NCBI GenBank assembly: GCA_000830175.1
Contig: JQIS01000010.1
Coordinates: forward strand, 1 to 64,000
Origin: Sulfurovum sp. FS08-3
Lineage (GTDB): Bacteria > Campylobacterota > Campylobacteria > Campylobacterales > Sulfurovaceae
Direction of reading: 5' to 3'
DNA: 64,000 nucleotides
A program made the position numbers and the translations under genes. Shown here piece by piece: positions 11,664 to 27,344 of the stretch. The notes under the pieces are model-generated. The model was not told where the DNA came from. It worked only from the letters and a program-made list of their open reading frames with translations, and ran no database searches. How positions within the stretch are numbered: the stretch's first letter is position 1; each line of letters begins with the position of its first letter.

Positions 11664-12064
11664 ATGCGAGGTACAATACTTTTTTTGCTCCTGCTTTTTC
11701 CTCTGATGGGTGGTGATTATGTTGTCGTTATCTCAAACAAAACATCGATTAAGCAGGTATCCAAGAGCCTTTTAAAAGATATTTATCTTAAAAAAAGGAA
11801 TTTATGGCAGGTATCAAAATAGTTCCAATCAATCTTTTTGCTCAACACGATATCCGTAGCAAATTTGAAGCGGTTGTTTTGGAGATGGATAGAGAGGAGT
11901 TAAACGCTTATTGGATTGAGCAACACTATCACGGGATACGACCACCCATTACCCAAAAATCATCCAAAAGTCTTAAAGCTTTTTTGGATGGCGTGGAGGG
12001 GAGTATCGGCTACCTTCCCAAGGCACAGATGGATGGGACACTAAGAGTACTCTATGAGTTTTAG
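11664..12064 (+). pseudogene. Small PstS-like periplasmic binding protein, interrupted by a frameshift in an A7 run
   Basis: The first frame (11664-11822) encodes a signal peptide (MRGTILFLLLLFPLMGGDY) and a start typical of phosphate-binding-like domains (VISNKTSIKQVSKSLLKDIYL). It stops at 11820-11822. The second frame (to 12064) supplies the rest: IKIVPINLFAQHDIRSKFE, EELNAYWIEQHYHG and GSIGYLP. Reading -1 at the seven A residues 11790-11796 joins them into one protein of about 133 aa. Without the shift the 86-aa ORF from ATG 11804 would lack a signal peptide, although AAGGA lies just before that ATG. It may be a real mutation, ribosomal or polymerase slippage, or a sequencing error. The 3' end overlaps the cyclase gene by 11 bases. 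Confidence 0.7.
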
Positions 12065-13817
12065 AACCAAAACTATTTTACTTTTTTTATTGACAAGTTT
12101 GATTCCTTATCTGCTCGTCATTGTCTATATTGTTCACAATACCAAAAGCGAGGTGGTAAGTGAGCTTAACCGTGATATTGATTTTAGTTTGGAGCTTGTG
12201 GGAGAACGGCTCGATAATCAATTAGAAGTCTTGCAAAAAGAGTTTATTTTTATCGCTAAACTTGATATTATGGATGATATTATGAGCCAAGATATTGACC
12301 GCCGTATCAGCAATCTCTTTAAAGACAAAAAAGCAGATATGCGACTCAAAGGCGATTTTTTTGCCACCAATCTTAAAGGCAAGGTGGTAGCCTCGTCGAA
12401 TATTCAAGCGATCTCTAAAAAGTTTGATTTCAATCAAACCAATACCAAAATATTTCAATACAATATTGTGGGCAGTTTTAATAATCAAAAAATAGGAACT
12501 ATCTATCTAACCTACCATCTTGATAACCTTAAAGCACTTCTCAAATCCAAATCCAATCAGATGTTGTATTTATACAACAACCAAACCAACCTCAATCTCT
12601 TTAAAATTAAACATTTTACCCAAAGTATCGTACGCTCTAAGCCTATTGGCAAGCTGGAAAATATGGAGCTTTTTATCGAAATGGATAAGCAGCAAGCTCT
12701 CATGCTCTATAACCATTTTCAACTTATTTTGCTCTTCTCGCTATTAGCAGGTGCGGTTTTAATCTCACTGGTTTCGATCTATTTTGCTTCCAAGATTACC
12801 AAACCCATCAATAATCTCTCTCAAACCGCTCTTAGCATCGCTTCGACCAAAGACTACGCCAAACGAGTTAGCATTCATTCAAGTGATGAGATTGGCAAGA
12901 TGGCAAAAGCATTTAACGAATTGGTTATGAGTATCGAAAAAGCCTTGGCAGAGTTGGAAATTCAAAACCAACACAAACTTAAATTGATAGAAGAAAAAAG
13001 TAAAAACGAGATGTTTGAAGTGCTTTCACATAAACTCTCCAAATATCTCTCCCCTCAAATCTACCACTCCATATTTGAAGGGCAGCAAGATGTCAAGCTT
13101 GAATCCAAGCGTAAAAAACTGACTATCTTCTTCTCTGATATTATCGATTTTACGGCAACCACAGAGAGCATGGAGTCTGAAGACCTTTCAAGTCTGCTTA
13201 ATCACTATCTTAATGAGATGAGTTTGATAGCCCTCAAGCACGGGGCAACCATTGATAAATTTATCGGTGATGCCATACTGATATTTTTTGGCGATCCAAC
13301 TTCTAAAGGGGTTAAAGCCGATGCCCAAGCGTGTCTGGATATGTCGTTGGAGATGATAGCCAAGGTTAAAGAACTTGAAAACTATTGGTTGGAATTGGGT
13401 GTACCTAAACCCTTTCGTATTCGTATCGGTATCCATACAGGCTTCTCGACTGTAGGGAATTTTGGAAGCGAAGATAGGATGGATTATACCATTATCGGCG
13501 GGGCGGTCAATCTGGCAAGTCGGATTGAGTCCAAAGCCAAGCCCAATGAGATATGGATCTCTCAAGAGACCTATTTGCTCATCAAAGATAGTATCTATTG
13601 CCAAGAACAAGAAGCAATCGGTGCAAAAGGAATCACTCAGCCTATTAAAATCTACAAGGTTGTGGATTATCACGATAAACTCAATACTCCAATGGTGTTG
13701 GATTATGCGTTAGAGGGAGTCAAGATAGTGCATAACAGTATTGAGATTGAAAATAGGGCAAGTGCTGTTAAAAGTCTCAAAGAGCTACTTAAATGTATTG
13801 AAAATAGTAATTGTTAG
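12054..13817 (+). CDS. Membrane-bound HAMP class III adenylate cyclase
   Basis: A 587-aa receptor cyclase: membrane helix 7-28, a periplasmic sensor domain (about 30-220), a second helix (about 225-245), a HAMP domain (about 246-300), a short coiled coil, and a class III nucleotide cyclase domain (about 350-550). The metal-binding aspartates are in FFSDIIDFT and IGDAIL, and the transition-state Asn/Arg are in VNLASR. Lys in DKFIGDA and Asp in MDYTIIGG are the pair that selects ATP, so cAMP is the likely product. The start overlaps the end of the binding-protein gene. The porin, binding protein and cyclase may form a ligand-sensing module, as small phosphate-binding-like proteins often precede sensor enzymes. 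Confidence 0.88.
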   Translation: MSFRTKTILLFLLTSLIPYLLVIVYIVHNTKSEVVSELNRDIDFSLELVGERLDNQLEVLQKEFIFIAKLDIMDDIMSQDIDRRISNLFKDKKADMRLKGDFFATNLKGKVVASSNIQAISKKFDFNQTNTKIFQYNIVGSFNNQKIGTIYLTYHLDNLKALLKSKSNQMLYLYNNQTNLNLFKIKHFTQSIVRSKPIGKLENMELFIEMDKQQALMLYNHFQLILLFSLLAGAVLISLVSIYFASKITKPINNLSQTALSIASTKDYAKRVSIHSSDEIGKMAKAFNELVMSIEKALAELEIQNQHKLKLIEEKSKNEMFEVLSHKLSKYLSPQIYHSIFEGQQDVKLESKRKKLTIFFSDIIDFTATTESMESEDLSSLLNHYLNEMSLIALKHGATIDKFIGDAILIFFGDPTSKGVKADAQACLDMSLEMIAKVKELENYWLELGVPKPFRIRIGIHTGFSTVGNFGSEDRMDYTIIGGAVNLASRIESKAKPNEIWISQETYLLIKDSIYCQEQEAIGAKGITQPIKIYKVVDYHDKLNTPMVLDYALEGVKIVHNSIEIENRASAVKSLKELLKCIENSNC

Positions 13818-14235: not shown

Positions 14236-16050
14236 ATGGATAAAAAGCAGACACTGAAACACTACTTTGGGTATGACGACTTTAGAGATTTGCAAGAAGA
14301 GGCAATTGATACGATAGTGAGCAAAAGAGATATGCTTATGATACTCCCCACAGGCGGGGGCAAATCGCTATGCTACCAACTTCCCACTTTGATGATGGAG
14401 GGCGTTACGGTGGTGGTTTCTCCGTTGCTTTCGCTTATGTACGATCAAGTCACATCGCTTCAAGCCAACGGGATAGAAGCAGCAATGGTAAGCTCCATGC
14501 AAAGCTTTGAAGAGATTAAGAGCATCGAACAACAAGTTATAAGGGGCGAGATTAAAATGCTCTACGTTGCTCCTGAGCGTATGGATAGCAGCTACTTTAT
14601 CTCCTTGCTTCACCGTGCCAAAATCAATTTTTTTGTCATTGATGAGGCACATTGTCTCTCTCAATGGGGGCATGAGTTTAGGCAAAGCTATCGAAAATTG
14701 AGTATCCTCAAAGAGCAGTTTCCACGCATCCCTATCGCTGCCTTTACAGCAACGGCCACTCAAATGGTACGAGCCGATATTATCAATGAGTTGCGACTCG
14801 ACAAACCCAATATTATCGTAGGCTCAATCTTTCGTTCCAATTTGTTTATCACCATCAAGCACCGTATTGGTGATGGCAAGGCACAGTTATTGGAGTTTTT
14901 GAAGCTCTACAAGGGTCAATCGGGAATCATCTATACCCTTTCTCGAAAATCGACCGAGTCGGTGGCTGCTTATCTCTCTCAAAAAGGATACAAAGCCAGA
15001 GCTTATCATGCAGGACTTTCAAATGAGGAGCGAGGAAGAATCCATAATGAGTTTATTCAAGACCGTTTGGATATGGTAGTAGCTACGGTTGCTTTTGGGA
15101 TGGGAATTGATAAACCCAATATCCGTTTTGTCGTCCACCTTCATCTACCACGCAATTTGGAGAGCTACTATCAAGAGATTGGCAGAGCAGGAAGAGATGG
15201 CAATCTAAGCCAAACGTTACTGCTTTTTACAACGGCTGACTTGATTCAACAGCGTCTTTTTATTGACGATTTGGAAGCGGGGGAGTACAAACGAAACGCT
15301 TATGCAAAGTTGCAATCCATCTCTACCTTTGCCACATCAACAAGTTGTCGCCATCAAAGCATTTCGCACTATTTCAAAGAGAGCCTTGTACCTTGCATGG
15401 AACGGTGTGATAACTGCTTAAGCTACAAAAACCAAACGATAGATATTACCACTCCCGCTCAAAAGATACTCTCAGCTATCTATCGAACCAAGCAGAGCTT
15501 TGGAGCCAACTACGTTGTCGATATTCTCAAAGGGAGCAAAAGCAAAAAAATTGTACAAAACGCCCACGACAAGCTCTCGGTTTACGATATTGGCAAGGAG
15601 TACTCCAAAAGCGGTTGGCTCACCATTGTTGATAAACTTTTGGAGTTTGGAGCGGTGGCTATCAACGACAAACGAGTCTATATCTTGACGGAGATGGGCA
15701 AAAAGATACTTCAAGGCAAACAGAGCGTTGCCATTGATGAAGAGCGATTGAAAGTCACCTTTGAGACCCAAGTAGTCGATGATAACGGGGTATTTGAAGA
15801 GGATACGCAACGCATTTTGGATCGTCTAAGCAAACTACGCAACACCATCGCAACCCAAAACTCTATCCCCGCCTATATCGTCTTTTCACAAAAGACTCTA
15901 GCACAAATGGCAATGGAGCTTCCCACCACCAAAGAGGCGATGCTTAACATTCACGGAGTAGGAGAGGTGAAGTATGAACGCTACGGCGAAGCTTTTATTG
16001 AAGAGATTAGGGCTATCAAAAACGCAAAAGGTATTGTTGGTAGTGGATAA
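14236..16050 (+). CDS. recQ: ATP-dependent DNA helicase RecQ
   Basis: A 604-aa superfamily 2 helicase that unwinds recombination and stalled-fork intermediates. Domain order: helicase core with Walker A PTGGGKS (about 39-45), DEAH (136-139) and the aromatic-rich loop CLSQWGHEFR; second RecA domain with VATVAFGMGIDKPNIRFV and QEIGRAGRDG; zinc-binding RQC region with cysteines in SCRH, PCMERCDNC; and a C-terminal HRDC domain (about 525-595, containing MLNIHGVGEVKYERYG). The protein is full length. Its 3' end overlaps the convergent degenerate-GGDEF gene by 35 bases. Confidence 0.96.
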   Translation: MDKKQTLKHYFGYDDFRDLQEEAIDTIVSKRDMLMILPTGGGKSLCYQLPTLMMEGVTVVVSPLLSLMYDQVTSLQANGIEAAMVSSMQSFEEIKSIEQQVIRGEIKMLYVAPERMDSSYFISLLHRAKINFFVIDEAHCLSQWGHEFRQSYRKLSILKEQFPRIPIAAFTATATQMVRADIINELRLDKPNIIVGSIFRSNLFITIKHRIGDGKAQLLEFLKLYKGQSGIIYTLSRKSTESVAAYLSQKGYKARAYHAGLSNEERGRIHNEFIQDRLDMVVATVAFGMGIDKPNIRFVVHLHLPRNLESYYQEIGRAGRDGNLSQTLLLFTTADLIQQRLFIDDLEAGEYKRNAYAKLQSISTFATSTSCRHQSISHYFKESLVPCMERCDNCLSYKNQTIDITTPAQKILSAIYRTKQSFGANYVVDILKGSKSKKIVQNAHDKLSVYDIGKEYSKSGWLTIVDKLLEFGAVAINDKRVYILTEMGKKILQGKQSVAIDEERLKVTFETQVVDDNGVFEEDTQRILDRLSKLRNTIATQNSIPAYIVFSQKTLAQMAMELPTTKEAMLNIHGVGEVKYERYGEAFIEEIRAIKNAKGIVGSG

Positions 16051-17014
16051 TATCGGGCGAATCTTTTTTTTTGGCTAAGTGCAACGCCTCATCAACATAG
16101 AGATTGAGTATATCGTAGGTGGCTTGTGTGTTGTCTGAGAGGTTAAGACTCTTAGTGGCAATTCCTACAAAGACTTCAAGGTCACTCAATTCATCAACGG
16201 CTTCATAGTGTATATGATTTTTGATACGTTCAACAACCATTGTGGAGTTTTCTTGATTGGTATTGGGCAAAAGCAACATAAACTCATTGTCGTTAAAGCG
16301 TCCAATAACATCAATACGGCGTGTATTGTGTGCAATAATAGAAGCAAACGCTTTGATGATTCTATCGTGTTGCTCTTGACCGTACAGTTCACTAGATGAT
16401 GCAATGTGAAAGAGTGCGACACTAAGGTGCGAACCATCACGCTTGGCTACTTCAATAAGGTATTTGTAGCTCTCTTCAAGTCCTCTTCGATTGTAAATAC
16501 CTGTAACTTCATCGTGTGTAGTCTCTTGTGAAAGAGCCTTTTGGAGCTGCTCAATACGCTCTTGAAGCTCTTTGTTTTTGTCTTGAAGATTGATAGTAGC
16601 AGTGATATTGTTGGAGAGTGCCAAAATACGCAAAGCTGTACCGTTTTTGTTGCGTATCGCCATGGCACGTGTACGCATATAGATAGGGTGAGCCGTTTTG
16701 TGTTGGTATCGTATAATTTGATTAAAAGGGTAGTTTGAGTCTTGCAAATGTTTTTGGAGTTTGGTCATGGCTGTTGCAAGATCTTCATCAAAAATGACAC
16801 TTTTAAACTCACTAAAGTGGTGTGCCCTATCCTTGGATGCATAGCCCAGTAGTGTCCAAAAATTAGGAGAGATCCACATATTATTTTTTTTGGTAAGATC
16901 CCAATACCAAATTCCATCAATAGAACCCTCATGGATAAAATCAAATATTGAACGATTAAGAATGGAGTAAAGCTCCCTATGGAGATAGTGTAGCTCGGTG
17001 GGTGTATCTGTCAT
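16016..17014 (-). CDS. PAS protein with degenerate GGDEF domain (array member 4)
   Basis: A soluble 332-aa protein: PAS domain (about 20-135, containing GIWYWDLTKKNNMWIS), coiled coil (about 135-165), then a GGDEF fold (about 165-325). The catalytic signature is NDNEF instead of GGDEF, and the metal-binding DxDxFK motif is replaced by FHIASSSEL, so cyclase activity is not expected. RRID, exactly five residues before the signature, preserves the RxxD inhibitory site that binds c-di-GMP. It is the last gene of a four-gene operon (four-base overlap with the preceding gene). A c-di-GMP receptor or scaffold role is inferred. Confidence 0.85.
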   Translation of the reverse strand: MTDTPTELHYLHRELYSILNRSIFDFIHEGSIDGIWYWDLTKKNNMWISPNFWTLLGYASKDRAHHFSEFKSVIFDEDLATAMTKLQKHLQDSNYPFNQIIRYQHKTAHPIYMRTRAMAIRNKNGTALRILALSNNITATINLQDKNKELQERIEQLQKALSQETTHDEVTGIYNRRGLEESYKYLIEVAKRDGSHLSVALFHIASSSELYGQEQHDRIIKAFASIIAHNTRRIDVIGRFNDNEFMLLLPNTNQENSTMVVERIKNHIHYEAVDELSDLEVFVGIATKSLNLSDNTQATYDILNLYVDEALHLAKKKDSPDIIHYQQYLLRF

Positions 17015-18075
17015 TGATAAAAATCCTCATCGTTGAAGTTCTCATTTTCGTTTGAAGCCTGTTTGAATGGGTCGGTGAAATTATTAATATCATCGTAGTG
17101 AAGCACCTGATTGCCTCCATTTTTTTGAGTATGATAGAGTGCTTCATCGACAAAGAGGTTGAGTGTATCGTAAATTTTTTGGGTATTGTCGCTAACATTG
17201 AGGCTTAGCGTTGCTACTCCACAACTTACGCTAAGGTAGTCGATTTTCGCCAAAGGTTGCTCTTGGAGATATTGGCGAACCCTTTCGCACACTGTAATTG
17301 CTCCTTTTTTATTGGTATTGGGCATAAGTATGATAAACTCCTCATCTCCAAATCGTCCCAAAATATCGACTCGGCGTGTAGAGTGTATCAAAATGGTTGC
17401 AAGATCTTTAAACACCTCTTCAAGACGTTGCTCTCCGTATTGTCTCTCTACTTGAACGCAATTTTCCAAATAGACCATGGCGACACTAAAGAGTGCACTG
17501 TTGCGTTTGGCAGTCTCTATAAGGTATTTGTAGCTCTCTTCTAGTCCTTGTCGATTGTAAAGTTGTGTAATGGCATCGTGAAACGATTTCTCTTGTATCT
17601 CTTGACGCAATGCGGCAATCTCATCTTTATAGACTTGAATACTCTCAGAGACAAGGGCAGGGGTGACATCGTTGTGGAAAGCAATAATACGCAAAGGTTT
17701 GTTCCCTTGATTGCGAATAACCATCGCTTGACACCGTAACGAAACCATCGAGCCATTTTTGTGGTGATAGCGTAAAACTTTATCGCAAGGATACTCTGGA
17801 TATTTGAGATGCTGTTTGAGTTTTTCGATTGCCTCTTGATAATCCTCCTCAAGCAGTAGCTCTCTCCATCGTACGCTTAAGTGTTCTATCTCATCTTGTC
17901 GATAGCCCAACATGTGCAAAAAGCCCAAAGAGAACCACATTTGATCTTTTTGGCTCAAATCCCAATACCAAACGCCATAAAGCGAACTCTTCTCCATAAA
18001 TTCAAAGAGGGGTTTTTTGATAAACATATAGAGTTCTTTTTGAAGATAGTGCATCTGTTGGGACGTATCTCTCAT
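17011..18075 (-). CDS. PAS protein with degenerate GGDEF domain (array member 3)
   Basis: A 354-aa paralogue of its neighbours: PAS (about 20-135; GVWYWDLSQKDQMWFS), coiled coil, GGDEF fold. The signature reads GDEEF, lacking the second glycine, and the metal-site segment is VYLENCVQV, so catalysis is doubtful. RRVD five residues upstream keeps the RxxD c-di-GMP site. It overlaps both neighbouring array genes by four bases, so the operon is tightly coupled. It has a longer acidic C-terminal tail (NENENFNDEDFYQ), a feature shared only with member 2. Confidence 0.85.
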   Translation of the reverse strand: MRDTSQQMHYLQKELYMFIKKPLFEFMEKSSLYGVWYWDLSQKDQMWFSLGFLHMLGYRQDEIEHLSVRWRELLLEEDYQEAIEKLKQHLKYPEYPCDKVLRYHHKNGSMVSLRCQAMVIRNQGNKPLRIIAFHNDVTPALVSESIQVYKDEIAALRQEIQEKSFHDAITQLYNRQGLEESYKYLIETAKRNSALFSVAMVYLENCVQVERQYGEQRLEEVFKDLATILIHSTRRVDILGRFGDEEFIILMPNTNKKGAITVCERVRQYLQEQPLAKIDYLSVSCGVATLSLNVSDNTQKIYDTLNLFVDEALYHTQKNGGNQVLHYDDINNFTDPFKQASNENENFNDEDFYQ

Positions 18076-19139
18076 CGGTAGTAATCCTCATAGCGGGGTT
18101 GCTCCTCCATATCGCCCATATCTTGGAGTTCGATTTGGGGTATGGTGACATGAATATTATCATAATGTTGCACACGGTTGCTCTCTTTTTTGGCATGATG
18201 GAGTGCTTCGTCGGTTGAAAGTATAAGTTGCTCATAAATCTTTTGCGTATCTTCTTGTAGGAGCGAAGAGCGTGTTGCGACACCACAACTTAGCGTTATA
18301 TCGACTCCGCCGCAAGGATGCCTTCGGATAGAGTTGCAAATACGCCAACTCACAACCATTGCATCCTCTTTGGAGGTGTTGGGCATTAATACTACAAACT
18401 TTTCACTATCAAAGCGTCCAATAATATCGACTCTTCGAGTGGAGTCGTAGAGTGTATGGGCGAGTGCTTTCAAGATTTTATCGATACGCTCTTGATCGTG
18501 CTGCTGGTGCAATTGTTCAAACGCATCAATTTCAAACATCGCAACGCTCAAGAGCGATCCATCACGCTTGCTTGCCTCAATAAGGTATTTGCAATTCTCT
18601 TCCACCCCTTTGTGGGCATAAATGCTTGTGAGGGGATCAAGAAAGGATTGGCTTTGCATCTCTTGATGGAGTTTTGCTATTTCGTTTTGATAATATTGTA
18701 TTTCATCTTTGTCTTGCATAAGTGCGGTGACATCGTTGTGCAAAAAAATCATGCGTGTGGGTTGTTGGCTTTGGTTGTGTAGCACCATGGCTCGACATCG
18801 TAGCCAAAGCGTTGAGCCGTTTTTGTGACGATAACGCAATACTCGATTGAAAGGGTACTCAGGGTATTGGATATGTTTGTTGAGCTTTTCCAAAGCAAGG
18901 CTTAAATCCTCTTTGAAAAGCACCGCTTTCCAATTGGAAGCCAAATGCTCCATTGTATCGTGGTGATAGCCTAAAATATGCCAAAAACCAGAAGATATCC
19001 ACATATTGTGTTGTTGTGTTAAATCCCAAAACAAAATACCATCAAGTGAACCTTTGTCGATAAATCCAAAGAGCGGTTGATGGATGAGAGTGTAGAGTTC
19101 CTCTTGAAGATAGTGCAATGGGTTTTGCGGTAATTGCAT
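18072..19139 (-). CDS. PAS protein with degenerate GGDEF domain (array member 2)
   Basis: A 355-aa paralogue with PAS (about 20-135; GILFWDLTQQHNMWIS), coiled coil and GGDEF fold. The signature is DSEKF, which cannot bind GTP as GGDEF does; the metal-site segment keeps one Asp (EIDAFEQLH). RRVD five residues before it preserves the c-di-GMP inhibitory site. The C-terminal tail is acidic (MGDMEEQPRYEDYYR). It begins 12 bases after member 1 and overlaps member 3 by four bases. Confidence 0.85.
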   Translation of the reverse strand: MQLPQNPLHYLQEELYTLIHQPLFGFIDKGSLDGILFWDLTQQHNMWISSGFWHILGYHHDTMEHLASNWKAVLFKEDLSLALEKLNKHIQYPEYPFNRVLRYRHKNGSTLWLRCRAMVLHNQSQQPTRMIFLHNDVTALMQDKDEIQYYQNEIAKLHQEMQSQSFLDPLTSIYAHKGVEENCKYLIEASKRDGSLLSVAMFEIDAFEQLHQQHDQERIDKILKALAHTLYDSTRRVDIIGRFDSEKFVVLMPNTSKEDAMVVSWRICNSIRRHPCGGVDITLSCGVATRSSLLQEDTQKIYEQLILSTDEALHHAKKESNRVQHYDNIHVTIPQIELQDMGDMEEQPRYEDYYR

Positions 19140-19151
19140 TGAGATGTGCCT

Positions 19152-19742
19152 TTAATAGAAGAGATTATCAAAGTGCAATACTCTATTGCTGCCATTTTTT
19201 TTGGCATGATAGAGAGCATCATCGGCACACAAGTTGAGTTTATCGTGATATTGAGGCGTAGGGTCACTTAGATTGACATGAATAGTAGCAACACCCCCGC
19301 TTATTGTTATGCCCTCAATTGCAGCAATGGAGCTAGACTCCGTAAAGCTACGGATACGCTCCGATACCATAATGGCATCTTCTTTGTTGGTATTGGGCAT
19401 AATGACCATAAATTTTTCACCATCAAAACGTCCCAAAATATCAACTTTGCGTGTATTTTTTTGCAAAATCGAAGCAAACTCTTGAAGCACCTCATCCCCT
19501 TTGGGGCGACCATGATGAATATTTAACGTATCAAAATCATCAATCTCAATAAGGGCTACACTCAAATAAGAGCCGTCTCGTTTGGCTACTTCAATAAGGT
19601 ATTCGCACTTCTCGTGAAGTCCACGACGATTAAAAATTTTTGTAAGATAGTCACGTGTGATTTCGTTGTGAAGCTCCTCTTTGAGCTGTTCAATTTGGGC
19701 ATAACAGGCTTCTAGCTCATTTTGATACTCTAACTCCATCAT
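19152..19742 (-). CDS. Stand-alone degenerate GGDEF protein (array member 1)
   Basis: First gene of the array, about 196 aa from ATG 19742; AAGGA lies about 10 bases upstream, so I prefer it to an in-frame TTG at 19751. It has no PAS domain, only a coiled coil (residues about 1-30) and a GGDEF fold. It is the least decayed copy: EIDDFDTLNIHHG still resembles the metal and GTP motif and RPKGDEVL follows, but the signature is DGEKF. RKVD keeps the RxxD site. It could pair with the PAS-containing members through its coiled coil. Confidence 0.82.
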   Translation of the reverse strand: MMELEYQNELEACYAQIEQLKEELHNEITRDYLTKIFNRRGLHEKCEYLIEVAKRDGSYLSVALIEIDDFDTLNIHHGRPKGDEVLQEFASILQKNTRKVDILGRFDGEKFMVIMPNTNKEDAIMVSERIRSFTESSSIAAIEGITISGGVATIHVNLSDPTPQYHDKLNLCADDALYHAKKNGSNRVLHFDNLFY

Positions 19743-19871
19743 GCGTACCAATCCTTATTGTAATATTTTGTACTATTTTACAAAAAAATTTGTAAGTGCT
19801 TAATAAAATATTTAAATTTATCTATTTTTTGAGCAATAAATTGCATGAAATGCTACTTATCAAGAGTTTTT

Positions 19872-19880
19872 TGCTATGAT
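19872..19880 (+). promoter_or_regulatory. Extended -10 of purN
   Basis: TGCTATGAT matches an extended -10 element, 30 bases before the purN start; it lies between divergent purN and the GGDEF array. Confidence 0.45.
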
Positions 19881-19909
19881 GTAAGCTACTATTTTTGAAA
19901 GAGTGACGT

Positions 19910-26341: not shown

Positions 26342-26914
26342 CTAGAGACCGTATCCGCCGAGCTTTTTGTACTCTTCTTGACTCAGTTGTGTTACGCCAC
26401 TGACTTTATCAATTTTGAAGTACGATAAAGTGGTAACATTATACTCTTTTTGGGTATGATTATCAATAAATGTAAACGAACCTTTTTTGACTATCATAAG
26501 CCAATCGGTAGAGAGGTCAAAGGGATACTCTTGGGTTTGATTGGCATAGGTTTTGTATCGGCGACTCTTTTGGTTGGTCAAACGAAACCATATTTTTTCG
26601 CTAGGCACAAGCGTGAGGGTCTCTATAGGGATGAGGGCGGTTACATTCCCCTCGTTGCTATCGACTTGCGTTTCATTGATTTCAGACGACGTATCGGTAA
26701 GATTACTTTCGATGGTTGTGTTCTCTTCAAGGGCTACCGCATTGCTTGTTGTGATACTTGTTGTATTGGTAGTGTTGTTTTCTATTGTATTGAAAGTACG
26801 ATTTGAGTCTTGAACGATAGTTTTGTTTAGCTCAGGCGAGAGAGTTGTTTTTTTTTTTTTTTTTTTTCTCTTCCAAGACCTTAATGCTGTAGATATTCTC
26901 TTTTTTGTTTTCAA
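26342..26914 (-). CDS. C-terminal part of the frame-split RodZ-like protein (sequon-rich periplasmic region)
   Basis: This frame continues the protein of 26832-27344 after the A20 tract. The ATG at 26914 is probably not a real start, as residues before the Lys run are out-of-frame sequence. The real content begins TTLSPELNKTIVQ. A Thr/Asn-rich linker holds at least six D/E-X-N-X-S/T sequons (DSNRT, ENNTT, EENTT, ESNLT, EINET, EGNVT), then a beta-rich domain of about 80 aa (KIWFRLTNQKSRRYK...DWLMIVKKGSFTF) like the RodZ C-terminal domain. It is expressed as part of the membrane protein only if the A run is 19 or 22 long, or after slippage. Confidence 0.7.
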   Translation of the reverse strand: MKTKKRISTALRSWKRKKKKKKTTLSPELNKTIVQDSNRTFNTIENNTTNTTSITTSNAVALEENTTIESNLTDTSSEINETQVDSNEGNVTALIPIETLTLVPSEKIWFRLTNQKSRRYKTYANQTQEYPFDLSTDWLMIVKKGSFTFIDNHTQKEYNVTTLSYFKIDKVSGVTQLSQEEYKKLGGYGL

Positions 26915-27344
26915 GTGACGATTGATTCTTTTCTATCCCAAAGTAGCTATTATCCACCACAGTGTTGGTTACGCTCTCTTGTTTGTAGAAGTTTTGGTAA
27001 ATATACCACGCTCCATAAAGCAATATCGCAATAAAAAGATAGAAAAAGAGTTTGGAAAAAAAACCATCCGAAGAGGTTTCAACGGTATTACTCAAAACGG
27101 GTTTATTGGTCATTTCAACGTTTTTGACGTAATATTCACGTATATCGTTTTTAAATTGTGTCAAATCAATACCAAATTCTCGTTCAAAAATCTTTGCAAA
27201 TCCCAATACCTGCATTTTGCTGAAGGTTTTAATTTCGCCATTGATAAGTTTTTTGAGCGTATCGGTAGGGATATTGGTTTTGATTGATACCGATTGTAAT
27301 CCATACTCTTCAACAATCTCTTTAATTGTATTATGACTCTCCAT
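26832..27344 (-). CDS. RodZ-like HTH membrane protein, N-terminal part ending after the A20 tract
   Basis: Residues 1-70 form a cytoplasmic helix-turn-helix domain (NTIKEIVEEYGLQSVSI, TDTLKKLINGEI); one membrane helix (about 100-118, FFYLFIAILLYGAWYIY) leads to the periplasm. This is the plan of RodZ, which links MreB to the cell wall. As sequenced, the A20 tract yields six Lys and then a premature stop (NNSLA), giving 170 aa. Shifting by -1 or +2 joins it to the C-terminal frame for a protein of about 330 aa. It overlaps rlmB by 14 bases and is in the rpmE-rsmI-rlmB operon. The same position in C. jejuni is held, from memory, by Cj0152c, a reported N-glycoprotein. Confidence 0.75.
   Translation of the reverse strand: MESHNTIKEIVEEYGLQSVSIKTNIPTDTLKKLINGEIKTFSKMQVLGFAKIFEREFGIDLTQFKNDIREYYVKNVEMTNKPVLSNTVETSSDGFFSKLFFYLFIAILLYGAWYIYQNFYKQESVTNTVVDNSYFGIEKNQSSLENKKENIYSIKVLEEKKKKKKNNSLA
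26848..26867 (-). repeat. 20-nt homopolymeric A tract (T on the plus strand) inside a coding region
   Basis: Twenty consecutive T on the plus strand, coding as A20. Runs of this length are hypermutable and cause polymerase slippage; A20 is out of frame for the downstream half, while A19 or A22 is in frame. Confidence 0.9.

Follow-up and report, generated by a model that had tools for sequence, protein, structure and literature searches.

In P. aeruginosa, PelD binds c-di-GMP through a degenerate GGDEF domain that carries an RxxD motif and a third arginine (R367/D370/R402), and R363, D366, and R395 are needed for c-di-GMP binding by PelD of B. cereus (PMC7112168). CdgA (Bd3125) of Bdellovibrio bacteriovorus pairs a GVNEF motif with RxxD; it is an inactive cyclase that binds c-di-GMP with a Kd of about 2 uM (PMC3271064). 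Tandem arrangements of related proteins have been described in Leptospira interrogans, where seven PAS-GGDEF paralogs form one operon (LA2926-LA2933 / LIC_11125-LIC_11131) in which most members carry RxxD and copy number differs among strains; these members keep GG[D/E]EF and are predicted to be active, and activity has been demonstrated for LA2932 (PMC5932348, PMC12943098). The reference positions for GGDEF domains are those of PleD, namely D327 and E370 for metal, F331, N335, D344, K442, and R446 for substrate, K332, and an inhibitory site (I-site) made up of R359, D362, and R390 plus R313 of a partner domain (PMC12943098).

The locus considered here lies in a 64,000-nucleotide stretch of Sulfurovum sp. 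FS08-3 DNA (the window), on which four minus-strand paralogs adjoin each other and are read in the order M1, M2, M3, M4. M1 (19152-19742) encodes a 196-residue protein with a coiled coil and a degenerate GGDEF domain (RKVD-5-DGEKF) and no PAS domain. M2 (18072-19139; RRVD-5-DSEKF, with DGEKF in the G003 ortholog), M3 (17011-18075; RRVD-5-GDEEF), and M4 (16016-17014; RRID-5-NDNEF) each encode a PAS_3 domain, a coil, and a degenerate GGDEF domain. These features were assigned from open reading frames, Pfam matches, and alignment, and for M3 and M4 also from AlphaFold models. The Pfam GGDEF scores (PF00990) are 114, 71, 93, and 69 bits for M1-M4 at a curated cut-off of 23.8, and PAS_3 is matched in M2-M4 only. 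A sequence-only reading of this DNA had described four tightly packed paralogs with these substitutions for GGDEF, an N-terminal PAS domain in three of them, and an RxxD five residues before each motif. All of this was borne out: the spacing is exact in all four proteins, and RxxD stands at the same distance in all seven orthologs.

The gene boundaries are equally tight, with a 4-nt overlap (ATGA) at both M2/M3 and M3/M4 and a 12-nt gap between M1 and M2, which makes co-transcription of the array likely. M2 and M3 end in EDYYR and EDFYQ, respectively. We considered these termini as a docking motif and rejected this for a simpler reading, since their codons contain GAGGAT, a Shine-Dalgarno-like sequence for the next gene; both units would thus carry the ribosome-binding site of their successor. 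The array is flanked by a divergent purN upstream and a convergent recQ downstream, the 3' ends of M4 and recQ overlapping by 35 bp. None of M1-M4 has an output domain, and no output partner gene was found near the array. Two other features of the window can be recorded here. Past recQ on the downstream side of the array, a gene at 12054-13817 on the opposite strand encodes a HAMP domain and a class III adenylate/guanylate cyclase catalytic domain. At 26342-27344 on the minus strand, the gene for a putative RodZ-like HTH/membrane protein falls into two frames that overlap, the break lying at about 20 consecutive A (near 26848-26867) and reflecting slippage or a sequencing error.

The GGDEF domains of M1-M4 share 45-49% mutual identity. 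An insertion preceding the last helix is also common to them, whereas the genome's 18 other full-length GGDEF domains either lack it or have it at a different place. In a tree built from the genome's own GGDEF domains and the array orthologs, they form one clade with support of 100/99. Taken together, the single clade, the common insertion, and the level of identity indicate that the four RxxD sites reflect one inheritance followed by retention and, to judge from the sequences, are not four independent events. The tandem expansion proposed in the earlier reading is thereby upheld as a single origin by duplication. The nearest other GGDEF domain in the tree is that of L015, placed with moderate support (93/82) and on a long branch. 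L015 is itself degenerate and carries RTTD together with the R390 equivalent; it is another candidate I-site receptor. It is encoded on G000:C55 as a membrane sensor with the motif SGDAF, and its ortholog L092 (G004:C66) has SGDEF.

Comparison with PleD, in which the R390 equivalent was placed by aligning PleD to M1, separates the two functional sites of these domains. The equivalents of R359, D362, and R390 are invariant in all 11 array sequences, which come from three closely related genomes and are not independent rows. Against a background of 32 invariant columns among 163, invariance at all three I-site positions has a P of about 0.007, and the difference from the A-site, where 0 of 11 positions are invariant, gives p = 0.003; both values are to be read with the same non-independence of rows in mind. 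Elsewhere the genome has 18 full-length GGDEF domains, of which 6 carry RxxD and 12 lack it; the R390 equivalent is absent from 13 of them, and L015 alone combines the two. Since most of these domains keep the fold without RxxD or R390, the triad is not a fold requirement. This bears on the proposal that GGDEF serves the array as a mere scaffold or dimerization domain for PAS sensors, with RxxD and R390 kept for folding or protein contact. The most conserved block of the array domains is TRxxDxxGRF, which sits in a structured loop, and this speaks for such a role; the absence of these residues from so many other GGDEF domains of the genome and the lack of any PAS domain in M1 nevertheless make the proposal very unlikely.

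The A-site has fared differently. The set expected of an active cyclase (GG[D/E]EF, D327, K332, N335, D344, E370, E371, K442, R446) is complete in no array member, and D327, K332, and R446 are kept in 0 of 11 array sequences; A-site residues are mostly near-universal in the 18 other domains (R446 in 12). Erosion is greatest in M4, which has a 3-residue deletion across the F331-K332 region and E370N, and M3 has lost the metal-site D327 and carries K442Q; nearly the whole GTP site is gone from these two members. M1 is the least eroded. In the window genome it keeps N335, D344, E370, and K442, and its D327E change is conservative. The GGDEF domain of Caulobacter CC_3396 binds GTP and activates its own EAL domain. 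Because M1 keeps much of the A-site, it might likewise bind GTP, and some members, above all M1, could sense GTP or other nucleotides or retain weak cyclase activity. We hold this to be improbable given that M1 also carries E371K, K332D, and R446S, that N335 is replaced by S in both of its orthologs, and that so little of the site is left in M3 and M4.

RxxD is kept in many active cyclases merely for feedback control, and its presence in the array could in principle be that of an inherited relic. What the residue comparison indicates is that the predicted catalytic site is lost and that the entire putative I-site triad, beyond RxxD, is selectively kept. The array is best explained as a lineage-specific expansion of putative I-site c-di-GMP receptors that resemble PelD and CdgA and have PAS input.

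Predicted structures are in line with the domain assignments. AlphaFold models of M3 and M4 show a PAS domain joined by a helix to a GGDEF fold, with a pLDDT of about 90 for the GGDEF part of M3 and lower values for M4. In Foldseek searches, full-length M3 matches a LOV-activated diguanylate cyclase (8c05), its GGDEF domain matches c-di-GMP-bound GcbC (TMt 0.87), and PleD is also among its matches.

Overall, M1-M4 are probably co-expressed, catalytically dead proteins that would act as c-di-GMP receptors via the kept I-site, as PelD and CdgA do. In such a mechanism, c-di-GMP would bind at the equivalents of R359, D362, and R390, and the bound ligand would bridge two GGDEF domains as in PleD. 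The coiled-coil linkers could allow homo- or heterodimers of the paralogs, and a signal perceived by the PAS domains of M2-M4 would determine affinity or dimer geometry. Because M1-M4 have no output domain, the ligand-bound complex would act on a separate protein partner. One detail may depart from PleD: the position of R313 is occupied by V in M1, with an invariant K and R two and three residues further on, and without a positional match to R313 the PleD style of cross-linking may not hold. An elaboration of the receptor model, in which c-di-GMP bridges the I-sites of different paralogs in mixed dimers or oligomers, M1 being the common subunit and M2-M4 interchangeable sensors, each for its own signal, of a combinatorial reader, seems to us quite unlikely. 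The role of shared partner that had been suggested for M1 is unsupported speculation.

The genomic setting is one in which such receptors could operate. The window genome has 27 GGDEF matches, 9 EAL domains, and 2 MshEN domains, and with this complement of GGDEF and EAL domains c-di-GMP is presumably both made and degraded here. PilZ matches over the Pfam cut-off were found in none of 175 Sulfurovaceae genomes, although one incomplete genome yielded two sub-threshold matches. Given the missing PilZ and the small number of usual readers, I-site receptors are plausible. The genus of the window has many GGDEF and EAL domains despite the PilZ result, and the number of GGDEF matches varies strongly within it (27, 24, 13, 9, and 7 in G000-G004).

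About 15 GGDEF domains of the same genome have intact motifs, and this opens another route by which the array could influence signaling: its proteins might pair with active diguanylate cyclases as regulatory dimer partners, in which case the dead GGDEF domain would block or tune the live one. I-site binding of c-di-GMP would then be secondary or would lock the mixed dimer. The retained dimerization modules (coiled coil and PAS) and the absence of output domains fit this arrangement. Taken alone, however, it leaves unexplained the invariance of the I-site triad in a domain that has otherwise diverged to 45% identity, and no active cyclase of the subfamily is present, the nearest relative L015 being degenerate as well. 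We therefore consider dimer partnership unlikely as the main role, with receptor function the preferred reading.

Comparison of orthologs shows that the array genes are maintained. For every array gene dN/dS between orthologs is 0.08-0.18, with similar values in the PAS and GGDEF parts, which points to purifying selection on maintained proteins. Together with the intact frames in three genomes, these values rule out decaying pseudogenes. The search for the same tandem order, suggested along with the initial observation, recovered the array family in 3 of 175 Sulfurovaceae genomes, corresponding to 3 of the 5 genomes in the genus; the two remaining congeners do not carry the array beside purN. 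Two of the three carriers are Sulfurovum MAGs from sulfidic caves (DYMA01000168.1 and DYTG01000143.1). A wider scan of genome contigs returned these two cave MAGs only and otherwise generic GGDEF matches at 29-31% identity. In DYTG01000143.1 three genes are left, one of them an in-frame M1::M2 chimera that joins the M1 GGDEF domain to the M2 C-terminal tail (L030/L046/L040, about 687-1346; breakpoint in common ATCATGCCAAAAAA). This chimera may be the product of a natural unequal exchange that deleted M2, or it may be a misassembly or assembly collapse.

The three carriers also share the 167-nt intergenic region common to M1 and the divergent purN (19743-19909), which sequence comparison showed to be 89-97% identical among them, in genomes whose divergence at synonymous sites reaches about 40%. 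Within it, an invariant block contains a double dyad at 19833-19853 (GCATTTCATGCAATTTATTGC) that occurs as a single copy in the genome and consists of two abutting dyads, GCATttcATGC and GCAATttATTGC. The region and its dyad are a probable candidate for a divergent promoter or operator. No Rfam match to a known RNA was obtained in the region, and a promoter/terminator scan gave matches no more numerous than in shuffles.

Set beside the described systems, the array resembles PelD in its degenerate GGDEF motif, its intact RxxD, and its third arginine, with the equivalent of PelD R402 (PleD R390) present in 11 of 11 array sequences. PelD differs in having a GAF domain, a membrane anchor, and a place in a polysaccharide operon, whereas the array proteins are soluble, have PAS or no sensor, and occur as four tandem copies; no pel genes were recognized among the window's ORFs. 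In CdgA, too, RxxD precedes a degenerate motif by five residues, but the protein comes from one gene rather than a tandem set. The Leptospira operon is similar in its adjacent, co-directional PAS-GGDEF paralogs of single origin. There, however, the motifs are intact, while every array member is degenerate and one, M1, has no PAS domain. PleD shares the equivalents of R359, D362, and R390 with the array, yet it is an active cyclase that uses R313 of its partner, a residue that appears not to be positionally conserved in the array.

In view of the Leptospira operon and the PelD/CdgA receptor class, the earlier statement that no system of this form had been described was too strong. What sets the array apart is the combination, a tandem set with all members degenerate; the single parts are known elsewhere. 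No description of such a set was found in the open-licence PMC literature, and the titles and abstract beginnings of the literature on Sulfurovum GGDEF proteins contain nothing specific to this locus.

As four naturally diverged I-site domains, M1-M4 constitute test material for the residues that c-di-GMP binding needs. They belong to the Sulfurovaceae, the family whose 175 genomes gave no PilZ over the cut-off. If the receptor reading is true, an entire duplicated PAS-GGDEF set, of a kind previously known as enzymes, would have been switched in this lineage from making c-di-GMP to reading it.
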